Origin: Curvibacter microcysteis | Lineage (GTDB): Bacteria > Pseudomonadota > Gammaproteobacteria > Burkholderiales > Burkholderiaceae_C | Reading direction: 5' to 3' | NCBI RefSeq assembly: GCF_028649455.1 | Contig: NZ_JAQSIO010000004.1 | Location: 310,001-374,000, forward strand | DNA: 64,000 nucleotides | Part shown: positions 24,434 to 29,224 of the stretch, piece after piece | Numbering within the stretch: position 1 is the stretch's first letter | Layout: every line of letters begins with the position of its first letter | Made by a program: the position numbers and the translations under genes | Notes under the pieces: model-generated | Database searches by the model: none | The model's input: the letters and a program-made list of their open reading frames with translations, nothing else | Told to the model about the DNA's origin: nothing

Positions 24434-25417
24434 TCAATTGAAGGATCCGATGCGTTTGAGGTTGCCGAAGTTCATCCAGACAAAGAAGGCCTTGCCCACG
24501 ATGTTGCTGTCGGGCACAAAGCCCCAATAGCGCGAATCGAGGGAATTATCACGGTTATCCCCCATCATGAAATAGTGACCTTCCGGTACTTTGCAACGAA
24601 CTCCTTCAATGGAGTAGTGGCAGTTGTCCTTGAACGGGAAGTTGTCCACGCCAGGCACAAAAGCCGGGCGATCCGGGTCGTTGAGCAGGCGATGGGGGTG
24701 GGTGCCCAGTTGCTCTTCAAACTGCTTGAAGTAGCGCACGGCGTCTTCATCAAAGAAGTCCGGAAGGGCCTTGGTCTCGATGGCCTGGCCATTGATGGTC
24801 AGGCGCTTGTTGAGGTAGGCCACCTCGTCACCCGGCACACCGACCACGCGCTTGATGTAGTCCAGCGAGGGCTTGGGCGGGTAGCGAAACACCATCACGT
24901 CACCACGCTGCGGTGCATTGCCTTCGGTGATCTTCTTGTTGATCACGGGCAGGCGGATGCCGTAGGTGAACTTGTTGACCAAGATGAGGTCGCCCACCAG
25001 CAGGGTCGGGATCATGGAGCCGGAGGGAATTTTGAAGGGCTCGAACAAAAACGAGCGCAACACAAACACGGCTGCGATGACCGGGAACAGGCCGGCGGTC
25101 CAGTCCAACCACCAGGGCTGCATCAAGAGTTTGACCTTGGCGTCTTCCACGTCGCCATCCACCTGCTGAATGCCCATGCGGGTCAGCTCTTCGCGGCGCT
25201 GCACTTGCGCGGCCTCAATGGCTTGCGCGGCCTGCCGGCGACGCGGCAAGAAGTACAGGCGCTCGGCCAACCAATAAGCCCCCGTCACCGAAGTGGCCAA
25301 GAACAGGAGGAGCGCGAAGTTGCCCTCGATGCCGCCAATGTTGAGGTACCAAGCCCCCACATAAGCGGCGAAACCGGCCAGGATCAGGGCGGTGATGGTG
25401 GACATGATGCTCATCAT
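24434..25417 (-). CDS. lepB: Signal peptidase I
   Basis: LepB cleaves signal peptides from exported proteins at the outer face of the inner membrane. The 327-residue protein has N-terminal hydrophobic segments (about 6-26 and 34-58) and another anchoring span before the catalytic domain. The nucleophile Ser lies in the box PSGSMIPTL and the general-base Lys in [11 protein letters not shown]. The C-terminal box [14 protein letters not shown] is present. ATG 25417 overlaps the lepA stop (ATGA), the classic lepA-lepB operon. Confidence 0.96.
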
Positions 25418-27222
25418 TCCTCCACCTGCAAAATGGCCAGAAAGGCTTCTTGCGGCACTTCGACCGAGCCGATTTGCTTCATGCGCTTCTTACCTGCCTT
25501 CTGCTTCTCGAGGAGCTTGCGCTTGCGGGTGATGTCACCGCCGTAGCACTTGGCCAGCACGTTCTTGCGCAAGGCCTTGATGGTTTCACGGGCAATGATG
25601 TTGGCGCCGATGGCGGCCTGGATGGCCACATCGAACATCTGGCGGCTGATGATTTCGCGCATCTTGGCGGCCACGGCACGGCCCCGGTACTGAGCTTGGG
25701 TGCGGTGAACGATGATGGACAAGGCATCGACCTTCTCGCCATTGAGCAAGATGTCGACCTTCACCACGTCAGAGGCGCGGTACTCCTTGAACTCATAGTC
25801 CATGGAGGCATAGCCCCGGCTGACCGACTTGAGCTTGTCGAAGAAGTCCAGCACGATTTCGCCCAACGGCATTTCATAGGTCAGCATGACCTGGCGACCG
25901 TGGTAGGCCATGTTCATCTGAACGCCGCGCTTTTGGTTGGCCAGCGTCATCACCGCGCCCACGTAATCTTGCGGCATGTAGAGGTGCACGGTCACGATGG
26001 GCTCGCGGATCTCCTGCATGCGGCCCTGGTCGGGCATCTTGGCGGGGTTCTCGACCATGATGACTTCGCCATCGCCCTTGACCACTTCGTAGACCACGCT
26101 GGGTGCGGTGGTGATCAGGTCTTGGTCGAATTCGCGTTCCAGGCGCTCTTGCACGATTTCCATGTGCAGCAAACCCAGGAAGCCACAACGGAAACCAAAG
26201 CCCAGGGCCTGCGAGACTTCGGGCTCGAAGTGCAGCGAAGAGTCGTTGAGCTTGAGTTTTTCCAGGCTGTCGCGCAGCGAGTCGTACTGGTTGGCTTCGG
26301 TCGGGTACAGACCGGCAAACACCTGGGGCTGGATTTCCTTGAAACCTGGCAAGGCCGAACTGGCAGGGCCCAGGTTGTTGGGCAGCTTTTTCTCAAGCGT
26401 GATGGTGTCGCCGACCTTGGCGGCCTGCAACTCCTTGATGCCCGCAATGATGTAACCCACCTCACCGGCCTCGAGCGAGTCGCGCGGCACGTTGGTCGGC
26501 GTGAACACACCGAGGTTGTCGGCGTTGTAGACCGTGCCGGTGGCCATCATCTTGAAGCGCTCGCCCTTGCCCAGGCGGCCGTCGACCACGCGCACCAGCA
26601 TCACCACACCCACGTAGGTGTCGAACCAGCTGTCCACGATCATGGCGCGCAGCGGCGCGTTCGGGTTGCCCTTGGGAGCGGGGATGCGGGCCACCACGGC
26701 TTCCAGGATGTCCTCAATGCCCATGCCGCTCTTGGCCGAGCAAGGAATGGCATCGGTCGCATCGATGCCGATCACGTCTTCAATTTCGGCCTTGGCATTG
26801 TCTGGATCGGCCTGCGGCAAATCCATCTTGTTGAGCACCGGCACCACCTCAACACCCAGGTCGAGCGCGGTGTAGCAGTTGGCCACGGTCTGGGCTTCCA
26901 CGCCTTGCGAGGCGTCGACCACCAACAGCGCGCCTTCGCAAGCAGAGAGGGAGCGGCTGACCTCATAGGAGAAGTCGACGTGGCCGGGCGTGTCGATCAA
27001 ATTGAGGTTGTAAACCTGGCCGTCCTTGGCCTTGTAGTGCAGCGCAGCGGTCTGCGCCTTGATGGTTATCCCACGCTCTTTTTCGATGTCCATCGAGTCG
27101 AGCACCTGGGCCTCCATCTCGCGCTCTTCCAGGCCGCCGCAGCGCTGGATCAAGCGGTCTGCCAGCGTTGACTTGCCGTGGTCGATGTGGGCAATGATCG
27201 AGAAATTTCTGATGTGATTCAT
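25414..27222 (-). CDS. lepA: Elongation factor 4 (back-translocating GTPase)
   Basis: LepA/EF4 is a ribosome-bound translational GTPase implicated in back-translocation and 30S biogenesis under stress. The 602-residue protein starts at ATG 27222 ([24 protein letters not shown]). It has G1 [10 protein letters not shown]3 DTPGH, G4 NKMD, an EF-G-like domain II, and the LepA-specific C-terminal domain ([19 protein letters not shown]). It is preceded by the 520-base non-coding region. The terminator at 27269-27299 lies upstream of its start, so its promoter must lie inside the last 45 bases or transcripts must read through. Confidence 0.97.
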
Positions 27223-27265
27223 CAACGGGAACGCTTAAGTAATTGAATTATCTGGGGGAGACCCA

Positions 27266-27299
27266 ATAAAAAAGGGCGCGTCTGGTAGCGACGCGCCCT
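27266..27299 (-). terminator. Strong intrinsic terminator, minus strand, upstream of lepA
   Basis: AGGGCGCGTC (27273-27282) pairs perfectly with GACGCGCCCT (27290-27299) around a 7-base loop. The six A residues on the plus strand at 27268-27273 give a U tract on the minus-strand RNA. The nearest upstream minus-strand gene, mucD, ends 444 bases before it, so it may end an independent small transcript. Confidence 0.88.
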
Positions 27300-27345
27300 G
27301 AACCAACAATCTATGGCAACTGCGATAGTTGGAGCTTCATTGTAG
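27268..27345 (-). ncRNA. Candidate small RNA (possible longer form from about 27556)
   Basis: The minus strand has a TACAAT hexamer (plus-strand positions 27339-27344), then about 60 bases, then the strong terminator at 27266-27299. This gives a transcript of about 65-75 nt. Its 5' part can fold (CCAAC...GTTGG around 27303-27332). A second possible promoter lies farther upstream: TAGAAT at 27563-27568 with TTGGGG at 27586-27591, 17-bp spacing. It would give a form of about 290 nt. No protein-coding potential or known RNA family was recognised. The -35 of the nearer promoter is poor, so this is a hypothesis. Confidence 0.35.
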
Positions 27346-27391
27346 GCAAAAAGCCTGGGACGTACAGCCCGAGAAGGGCCAGAGCCACGGC

Positions 27392-27407
27392 GTTGCAGCG
27401 CTGCAAC
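27392..27407. repeat. 16-bp perfect palindrome
   Basis: GTTGCAGC followed directly by GCTGCAAC. It sits 7 bases before the DnaA-box-like array and could be a site for a dimeric regulator. Confidence 0.8.
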
Positions 27408-27414
27408 AGGCAGT

Positions 27415-27493
27415 TTATACACATCTTATCAACAGGTTCGGTTGATGAGTTTCTGGACAACTTGTGGGTGATCTGTGGATCACCTGTGCCCAG
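27415..27493. promoter_or_regulatory. Array of DnaA-box-like motifs with 11-bp phasing
   Basis: On the plus strand are TTATACACA (27415-27423, fits TTATNCACA exactly) and TTATCAACA (27426-27434, one mismatch), 11 bp apart. On the minus strand, plus-strand words start at 27452 (TCTGGACAA), 27463 (TGTGGGTGA), 27474 (TGTGGATCA, one mismatch to TGTGGATAA) and 27485 (TGTGCCCAG), again every 11 bp. GGTGATC and GATCACC around TGTG also make a 7-bp inverted repeat (27467-27484). An AT-rich stretch follows at about 27570-27690. The layout resembles DnaA-binding clusters. Whether DnaA binds is untested. Confidence 0.45.
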
Positions 27494-27707
27494 CTGGTCG
27501 GTATCCCGCATCGTGGTTTTTGGTCTTCTCGATATGCCAAAGCGCATCGGTCAACAAGCTGCATTCTACCCAAACAAGGAATTAACCCCAAAATTTGTGA
27601 GCGAGCGCAAACTTACAAAAAAAAGGTATCCGGCTTGAAAAAAATTTGCAAAATGCCAAACAAACCTGACTGAACAGACCATCAATTCCGACTGTCGCCA
27701 GGGGGCA

Positions 27708-27733
27708 CAGCGGGAGGCGCCCCCCCCCCGCTG
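27708..27733 (-). terminator. Weak hairpin after mucD containing a C10 run
   Basis: CAGCGGG (27708-27714) pairs with CCCGCTG (27727-27733) just downstream of the mucD stop on the minus strand. There is no U tract. The loop includes part of a run of ten C (27720-27729). Confidence 0.35.
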
Positions 27734-27742
27734 CGGCTCAGA

Positions 27743-29224
27743 TCATCGACTGGGTCGGATGGCGGCAAACTGAGTCCACTCACCGCGGCGGAACAGCACG
27801 CTGATGGTTTTGCTGCGATCCGCCCTGGCCAGCGCCGCCTCGAACTCCTTCACACTGCCAACCTCTGAATTGGCAATGCCCAGGATGACGTCGCCTTCAC
27901 GCAGGCCGGCTCTCGCGGCCGCATCGCTGACCGCATCGACACGAACCCCGCCCTTGAGCTTGAGCTCCTTCTTCTGTGCCGCGGTCAATTCGCTGACCAC
28001 CAAACCCAGAGATTGACCAGCAGAAGAACCCTTTGGTTTTTCCTCGCGCTCAGCGCCTTTGCGCGCACTGGCTTCAGGCTCGATCTCGGCGATGGTGATG
28101 GCCAGATCCTTGTTGGCACCGCGGCGGAACACCGTCACCGTGCTGCGAGAGCCCGGTTTGGTGTTGCCCACCAGTCGGGGCAGGTCTGCGCTCTTTTCAA
28201 TGGTCTTGCCATCAAAGCGCACGATGATGTCTCCTGGCTCGACACCCGCCTTGTCCGCAGGTGAACCGGTTTCAACCCCGCGCACCAAAGCGCCCTGGGC
28301 TTTGGGCAAGCCCAGGGACTCAGCCACCTCTTTGCTGACTTGATCGATCTGCACGCCAATGCGACCGCGCGAGACACGCCCAGTGGCACGCAGCTGCTCG
28401 CTGACACGCACGGCCTCGTCGATGGGAATGGCAAACGAGATGCCCATGAAGCCCCCCGAGCGCGAGTAGATCTGGCTGTTGATGCCCACCACCTCACCAC
28501 GCATATTGATCAGCGGTCCACCCGAATTGCCAGGGTTGATCGCCACATCGGTCTGGATGAAGGGCAGGTAGTCCCCTGTGTCTCGCTGCTTGGCACTCAC
28601 AATGCCAGCCGTCACGGTGTTCTCGAGGCCGAAGGGCGAGCCAATCGCCATGACCCATTCGCCGACCTTCAGACGGCCGGTATCGCCCAACTTCACCGCA
28701 GGCAGGCCAGTGGCCTCGATCTTGACCACGGCCACGTCGGTGCGCTTGTCGGCGCCGACAATGCGCGCCTTGAATTCACGCTTGTCGGTCAGGGTGACCA
28801 CCACTTCATCAGCGTCCTCCACCACATGGGCATTGGTCATGATGAAGCCATCAGAAGTCAGCACAAAACCCGAGCCCACGCCTCGCGGCTGGGCTTCTTC
28901 ATCCTGCTGGGGTTTTTGTTGCCGCGGCCCCTGGCGCGGCACATTGGGAACGGGCAGACCAAAGCGCCGGAAAAACTCCAACATCTCCTCATCAACACCC
29001 CCACCATTGGCGGCACGGCTAGAGGCTTTCTCGAGGGTTCGGATATTGACCACCGAGGGGCCCACCTGCTCGACCAGATCGGTGAAGTCAGGCAGGGCGC
29101 GCACGGTGGCGGCAGACTGCGCCTGGGCCGCTTGCACCGGAAGCAAAGAAACAGCCGAGGTGCCAGCCATGGCGGCGGCCAGTGCCACAAGGCGCAGGCG
29201 CTTCCAATAGATGTTGTGCATCAT
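27743..29224 (-). CDS. mucD: Periplasmic serine protease, DegP/HtrA (MucD) family
   Basis: This HtrA-type protease/chaperone clears misfolded envelope proteins and restrains sigma-E activation. The 493-residue protein has a signal peptide (1 to about 36, cleaving near VQAAQAQS). The trypsin-like domain has triad His133 (TNAHVV), Asp163 (RTDVAVV) and Ser234 (GNSGGP). Two PDZ domains follow, at about 275-370 and 395-490. It is the last gene of the minus-strand order rpoE-rseA-rseB-mucD, separated from rseB by 87 bases, so a further promoter is possible. The usual sigma-E pathway partners are all present here. Confidence 0.95.
   Translation of the reverse strand: MMHNIYWKRLRLVALAAAMAGTSAVSLLPVQAAQAQSAATVRALPDFTDLVEQVGPSVVNIRTLEKASSRAANGGGVDEEMLEFFRRFGLPVPNVPRQGPRQQKPQQDEEAQPRGVGSGFVLTSDGFIMTNAHVVEDADEVVVTLTDKREFKARIVGADKRTDVAVVKIEATGLPAVKLGDTGRLKVGEWVMAIGSPFGLENTVTAGIVSAKQRDTGDYLPFIQTDVAINPGNSGGPLINMRGEVVGINSQIYSRSGGFMGISFAIPIDEAVRVSEQLRATGRVSRGRIGVQIDQVSKEVAESLGLPKAQGALVRGVETGSPADKAGVEPGDIIVRFDGKTIEKSADLPRLVGNTKPGSRSTVTVFRRGANKDLAITIAEIEPEASARKGAEREEKPKGSSAGQSLGLVVSELTAAQKKELKLKGGVRVDAVSDAAARAGLREGDVILGIANSEVGSVKEFEAALARADRSKTISVLFRRGEWTQFAAIRPSR

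Follow-up and report, generated by a model that had tools for sequence, protein, structure and literature searches.

We found that an array of five to six DnaA-box-like sequences, lying between a mucD-like protease gene and lepA in Curvibacter microcysteis, is probably a DnaA-bound regulatory module on a putative promoter (P2), where it would control a small RNA or a terminated lepA leader and perhaps also block a second putative promoter (P1). We place the probability of this reading at about 0.58. The best fit is DnaA control of transcription in front of lepA, given the rigid spacing between the array and the two promoter-like elements. A previous sequence-only reading of this DNA had offered four functions, namely titration, reactivation, a secondary origin, and control of the lepA transcript; the last is the best fit of the four, with the difference that the target of this control would be a small-RNA or leader unit with its terminator before lepA. 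Throughout the text, the window means the whole stretch of 64,000 nucleotides that was analysed.

In E. coli, according to the ChIP-seq results in PMC11317965, DnaA preferentially occupies box pairs with 2-3 bp between them and acts as a regulator of transcription, and changed box spacing disrupts binding. DnaA serves as an activator as well as a repressor of promoters and can act as a block to polymerase during elongation, and the same paper calls the mechanism of transcription control by DnaA, activation above all, poorly understood. Among the open-access papers listed, none showed DnaA boxes before lepA or a DnaA-controlled small RNA in Comamonadaceae. A module of fixed geometry across much of this family would offer a clean place for studying transcription control by DnaA. 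Should it produce a small RNA, the control of replication would extend to messengers at the post-transcriptional level.

The gap between mucD and lepA is about 520 bp long, and both genes are on the minus strand. The name mucD was taken over from the sequence-only reading; Pfam gives Trypsin_2 and PDZ. By mucD, the closest named relative among the best 80 of 560 matches is Curvibacter sp. HBC61 (91% identity), which places the genome in the Comamonadaceae. In the following, B denotes the pair of boxes on the plus strand (27415 and 27426), and A denotes the set on the minus strand (27452-27485). The features of the locus are as follows.

25414..27222, minus strand: lepA (EF4), the downstream gene (Pfam LepA_C).
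27269..27332, minus strand: predicted RNA of about 64 nt, with the hairpin CCAAC...GUUGG, the loop GCAGUUGCC, and then the terminator; its start is inferred from the -10.
27273..27299, minus strand: intrinsic terminator, AGGGCGCGTC...GACGCGCCCT and a T tract, upstream of lepA.
27339..27344, minus strand: P2 -10 (TACAAT), putative promoter of the small RNA or lepA leader, based on conservation.
27362..27367, minus strand: weak -35-like hexamer of P2 (CTGTAC), 17 bp from the -10, found in 33 of 76 loci.
27392..27407, no strand: perfect palindrome GTTGCAGCGCTGCAAC between the array and P2; TGTTGC...GCAAC is conserved.
27415..27423, plus strand: box B2 of the B array, TTATACACA, an exact match to the DnaA-box consensus TTATNCACA.
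27426..27434, plus strand: box B1 of the B array, TTATCAACA, one mismatch to TTATNCACA.
27452..27460, minus strand: box 3 of the A array, TTGTCCAGA, two mismatches.
27463..27471, minus strand: box 2 of the A array, TCACCCACA, two mismatches.
27474..27482, minus strand: box 1 of the A array, TGATCCACA, one mismatch.
27485..27493, minus strand: box 0 of the A array, CTGGGCACA, weak, three mismatches; mainly its CAC part recurs in relatives.
27503..27516, minus strand: CCACGATGCGGGAT element, from an alignment of 19 loci, partly lost in Polaromonas.
27532..27537, minus strand: GCATAT element, 55 bp upstream of box 1; [G/T]CATAT occurs in 35 of 66 loci, in 33 of them at 55 bp.
27563..27568, minus strand: P1 -10-like TAGAAT, 86 bp upstream of box 1, based on conservation.
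27743..29224, minus strand: mucD-like trypsin/PDZ protease gene, the upstream gene (Pfam Trypsin_2, PDZ).

Direct reading bore out what had been claimed of the letters themselves. The two plus-strand boxes, one exact and one a near match, are 11 bp apart, and the four minus-strand boxes follow one another at 11-bp steps, so that 9-bp boxes alternate with 2-bp linkers throughout each set; the boxes at 27452 and 27485 are weak when taken singly. The perfect palindrome beside the cluster is present, and the tract at 27570-27690, described as AT-rich, has 61% A+T against 35% in the whole window. In the genome of the species, the palindrome pattern TGTTGCN6GCAACR occurs in two places, the mucD-lepA gap and the region upstream of a porin gene.

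Two further observations were made on the mucD side of the gap. At 27594-27612, upstream of P1, there is an imperfect inverted repeat, of which variants recur in relatives and which looks like the operator of a regulator. About a dozen C residues in a row lie just past mucD, at about 27719-27731, possibly a slippage tract.

To judge the boxes against chance, we defined a double box as a tandem pair with a 2- or 3-bp linker and at most four mismatches in total. The window contains four double boxes, every one inside the array, which thus has what is found at DnaA-regulated promoters, namely at least two tandem DnaA boxes with linkers of 2-3 bp. In one hundred Markov copies of the window, double boxes numbered 1.25 on average and 5 at most; none of the copies contained a pair with at most one mismatch, as is present in the array. 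Among 2,000 simulations of the 520-bp gap, none reached four double boxes, and the maximum was two. Since a 400-kb sample of the same genome contained 18 pairs at the same threshold (about 2.9 per 64 kb), the number of double boxes is ordinary for this genome. The best pair in the array has a single mismatch, and there was no such pair in the 400-kb sample. The array stands out by clustering and by the quality of its best pair, not by count. At most three mismatches were found in five double boxes of the sample: three in the gap between hemE and priA, one upstream of dnaA, and one elsewhere. In the 4.82-Mb assembly, the array was the only exact match of TGTNNATAANNTGTNNATAA; at up to two mismatches there were three matches, against two for the backward control, and the next-best match (one mismatch) lies between grpE and dnaK.

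The alignment of the same gap from related genomes, which had been proposed as a check, showed that the positions and the spacing of the boxes are conserved. By mucD similarity, we collected 80 named loci, which are the best of 560. In five of them, lepA was absent from the stretch; the remaining 75 loci and the window gave 76 gaps. A was scored as present at up to 8 mismatches of 29, and B at up to 6 of 20. Both half-arrays are kept in 66 of the 76 gaps, A alone is missing in six (with a doubtful B in one of them), and both are absent in four, where a P2-like -10 is still found before lepA. These four natural losses are ready comparisons. The records among the 76 include Curvibacter, Rhodoferax, Polaromonas, Acidovorax, Ramlibacter, Hydrogenophaga, Caenimonas, and Hylemonella.

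In the 66 loci, eight of the nine positions of box B2 carry 1.4-2.0 bits, and position 5, the N of TTATNCACA, carries 0.19 bits; as a sequence pattern, this conservation around a free N position is a fingerprint of DnaA. Box B1 is variable at positions 5 and 6 (0.9 and 1.15 bits), and so is the B linker (0.9 bit per position). An exact TTATNCACA is found in B1 or B2 in 59 of the 66 loci. The A boxes are kept as strongly as B, but with letters off the DnaA consensus: G at position 2 of box 1 (59/66 loci), C at positions 2 and 4 of box 2 (64 and 65 of 66), and G at position 3 of box 3 (66/66). The patterns [T/C]GATCCACA for box 1, TC[A/G/T]CCCACA for box 2, and TTGT[C/T]CA for box 3 were found in 43, 61, and 52 of the 66 loci, respectively, and variation is seen at positions 1 and 3 in box 1 and at position 3 in box 2. 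In the A linkers, three of the four positions are fairly conserved (1.36-1.62 bits) and one is free (0.51 bit), which is more than plain DnaA spacing would seem to need. Because the conserved letters depart from the consensus, the A boxes are either weak DnaA sites or sites of another protein. The proposal of a DnaA-binding array is supported by the conserved positions and spacing.

The distances from the array to its surroundings are also kept. Of the 71 loci counted, 62 have 67 bp between B and the GCC-TACAAT of P2, and the distance from the array to the P2 -10 is mostly 67+3 bp. The length is kept although about 40 of the 67 positions of this spacer are below 1 bit. A and B are separated by 19, 18, or 17 bp in 43, 21, and 2 loci, respectively. 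On the other side, the distance between A and the TA[G/A]AAT of P1 is 86 bp in 52 of 66 loci, 85 bp in nine, and 87 bp in two, and the hexamer was not found in the other three. In the P2 -10, five of six positions are identical in all 76 loci and the sixth in 74, and no conserved -35 of P1 was seen among the compared loci. P1 and P2 rest on conservation because a consensus promoter scan of 27000-27900 listed no sigma-70 site. The boxes lie, at conserved spacing, beside a putative promoter.

Downstream of P2, CCAAC-UAUCGCAGUUGCCAUAGAUU-GUUGG is followed by a GC-rich intrinsic terminator and then by lepA. Since an RNA from P2 would stop at this terminator, the output of P2 would be a small RNA or a terminated lepA leader. 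We aligned 44 of the 61 RNA stretches listed, with 2 of the 76 loci left out for want of a terminator match as well as 2 diverged RNAs, and the loop letters are invariant or at least 90% conserved in the 44 sequences. Folding of a 70-nt stretch compared with shuffles gave a z value of -5.5, much of which is accounted for by the terminator. Covariation is slight (2 of 16 pairs) because the RNA sequence hardly varies. In its sequence, the unit combines a putative promoter, a conserved hairpin, and an intrinsic terminator, as a trans-acting small RNA would. No Rfam family was found at the gathering score, and there were only three sub-threshold matches; the best of these, AsrC over the start of lepA, is in our reading the lepA coding sequence on the other strand. 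A small protein was also considered and rejected: only 22 of 66 loci keep the 66-codon frame over the array and the RNA free of stops between box 1 and P2.

Outside the named loci, a BLAST search with the gap matched 29 of 35 Comamonadaceae relatives, which partly overlap with the genomes behind the named loci, and none of 24 genomes of other families. This figure overstates the array, since the matches often span the RNA and the terminator alone. In the 29 matched genomes, B was commoner than A: B was found at 60-72 bp from P2 in 27, and A together with B in 19. The six family genomes without a match have B-like tandem boxes in two cases and none in four. Within 600 nt before lepA, the 24 genomes of other families contain neither an A array nor a double box with at most three mismatches; the best B scores are five mismatches, in two genomes, and these are not pairs. 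Order-wide, the exact pattern of B with P2 was found in 6 of 399 genomes (backward control, 1 of 399), all of them Comamonadaceae, of which 12 were sampled; one of the six is without the palindrome.

The array was not found within 600 nt before lepA in these 24 Burkholderiales genomes, but some of them have a terminator-like hairpin before that gene. A strict scan of the last 150 nt before lepA found such a hairpin in 8 of the 24 (1% in letter shuffles), and six of the eight lie behind a -10-like word. The terminator before lepA thus looks older than the array, because the hairpins also occur in other families, where the array was not found. This suggests an old terminated lepA leader in several families of Burkholderiales.

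From the arrangement described above, a mechanism can be proposed. The module upstream of P2 has three to four weak A boxes in one direction and two stronger B boxes in the opposite direction; it covers about -161 to -83 relative to the putative P2 start and lies downstream of P1. DnaA would load on the strong B boxes and then spread to the weak A boxes, perhaps as ATP-DnaA only, and the assembly of DnaA, probably in its cooperative ATP form, on the 11-bp tandem boxes would turn the firing of P2 up or down. P2 would then give the hairpin RNA of about 64 nt that stops at the intrinsic terminator. Counted from the putative P1 start, the A boxes are about 63-100 bp downstream, so that bound DnaA could also act as a roadblock for P1.

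Direct repeats of 11 bp are typical of OmpR/PhoB sites as well. Another transcription factor of such repeats, for example of the OmpR/PhoB type, may own the array, the likeness to DnaA boxes being incidental, and the conserved letters in the A boxes and linkers beyond the DnaA consensus are consistent with this. We consider it unlikely, however, in view of the exact TTATNCACA in most loci, the free N in B2, and the sites in both orientations; moreover, the same double-box search picks the region upstream of dnaA and the hemE-priA gap. Chance, or conserved coding sequence, is barely credible as a source of the cluster. Although the single boxes are degenerate and a 66-codon frame crosses the module in the window, the gap simulations (0 of 2,000), the conservation in 66 of 76 loci, and the closure of the frame in most loci argue against it.

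Two further explanations concern replication. The array may be a non-coding DnaA control site for titration, hydrolysis, or reactivation, such as the DnaA-box clusters datA and DARS of E. coli (PMC4585315), in which case its place before lepA would be incidental. A cluster of five to six boxes that face both ways, lie far from dnaA and are conserved in the family would suit such a site, and in three of six relatives lepA is 27-28% of the chromosome away from dnaA, but in the other three the distance is about 22, 41, and 46% (as a share of the chromosome or a long contig, with dnaA standing in for oriC). The activity of datA needs its IHF site, according to PMC4585315. In the 66 loci, no position-conserved IHF site between or beside the boxes, as in datA and DARS2, was found: matches with at most one mismatch to the consensus reach at most 13 of 66 loci in any 5-bp bin, and the commonest (9-13 loci) fall around B itself. 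A fixed spacing to P2 over variable sequence is also not expected of a pure titration site, and we regard this explanation as improbable. A secondary or cryptic origin, for which boxes at 11-bp steps with an AT-rich tract about 80-200 bp away might speak, is highly improbable; this proposal of the sequence-only reading is disfavoured because dnaA and parS lie elsewhere and the skew switch in relative G011 is far from the locus. In the genome of the species itself, dnaA and parS-like sites are on another contig. In G011, the skew changes sign at about 3.30-3.40 Mb, at dnaA (3.325 Mb), and lepA is at 2.03 Mb, 1.3 Mb off. In the GC-skew check that had been suggested, no lasting switch was seen at the locus, and the skew was noisy with no clear switch in relative G012 (near dnaA) and in contig C1 of the species. 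In eight of nine family genomes, parS-like sites were about 76-174 kb from dnaA and not near lepA; in G025, they were about 1 Mb from dnaA. The results on skew, parS, distance, and IHF are against an origin and, more weakly, against a datA/DARS-like site.

Under the preferred reading of DnaA-controlled transcription from P2, the predicted RNA may also have a target. Its loop has 13 bases complementary to AUGGCAACUGCGA, the first 13 coding bases of the gene directly behind nrdB in the same genome (region 42077-45087 of contig C1). The product has 237 amino acids, is rich in Ala, Lys, and Pro, and was labelled H1-like by eye, with no Pfam match. The duplex energy at this start was -27.7, and one of 367 sampled gene starts was better. 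An 11-base core matched the genome six times (backward control, 10 times); one match is the gene of the RNA, and of the five others only one falls on a start codon. In the relatives, nrdB was not found in 1.36 Mb of G012 or in 0.64 Mb of G011. Among 31 stretches with a MATAKKP start from viral contigs, none was by eye the chromosomal H1-like gene, and GCAACTGC was present in two; of the 1,112 records from a plasmid search with NrdB, the 20 listed included no Comamonadaceae. The H1-like start codon is only a lead. We tentatively suggest, as a possibility, a family-wide circuit in which DnaA, cooperatively loaded on the two opposed arrays, would control the RNA of about 64 nt, which would relay DnaA status to other messengers, possibly including this start codon.

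The I and C sites of E. coli oriC are low-affinity tandem sites. They share opposed half-arrays, 2-bp linkers, and non-consensus letters with the array (spacing from passages of PMC11317965); unlike E. coli oriC, the array locus has no sign of origin activity and no skew switch. The extra-origin DnaA sites that served as the comparison are those of E. coli (PMC11317965, PMC4585315). As in the double-box promoters regulated by DnaA, such as purH and nrdD among others in the passages of PMC11317965, tandem boxes with 2-3 bp linkers lie beside putative promoters here. In contrast to those promoters, there are five to six boxes in two opposed half-arrays at a fixed distance to a terminated small-RNA or leader unit, in front of a different gene in a different family. 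With datA, DARS1, and DARS2, as described in parts of PMC4585315, the array has in common that it is a group-conserved, non-coding cluster of DnaA boxes away from oriC; it differs from them in lacking a position-conserved IHF site, in its variable distance to dnaA, and in its rigid link to a promoter-like element.

Two other sites with DnaA boxes were noticed in the same genome. In the gap between hemE (Pfam URO-D) and a priA-like gene (identified by eye), at 691483-692443 of contig C1, three repeats follow one another at intervals of 352-354 bp; AAGTTATCCACAG and an AT-rich word like GTTGATTTATATAGA are found in each, and TTATGCACA lies between. Parts of the repeats had matches, some of them weak, in 13 of 15 family genomes searched, and in five relatives they lie about 0.4-0.7 Mb from dnaA. 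An origin at this place, considered for its repeated TTATCCACA boxes, was rejected, as no skew switch appeared at the gap when G011 and G012 were sampled more finely; the repeats could be a DnaA titration site. In the gap between grpE and dnaK (306898-306917 of contig C4), a DnaA box TTATCCACA follows closely after CTTGAAA, which resembles a heat-shock -35, and is itself followed 2 bp on by TCATCAACA; the box TTATCCACA is conserved in 18 of 25 family genomes and in none of three outsiders.
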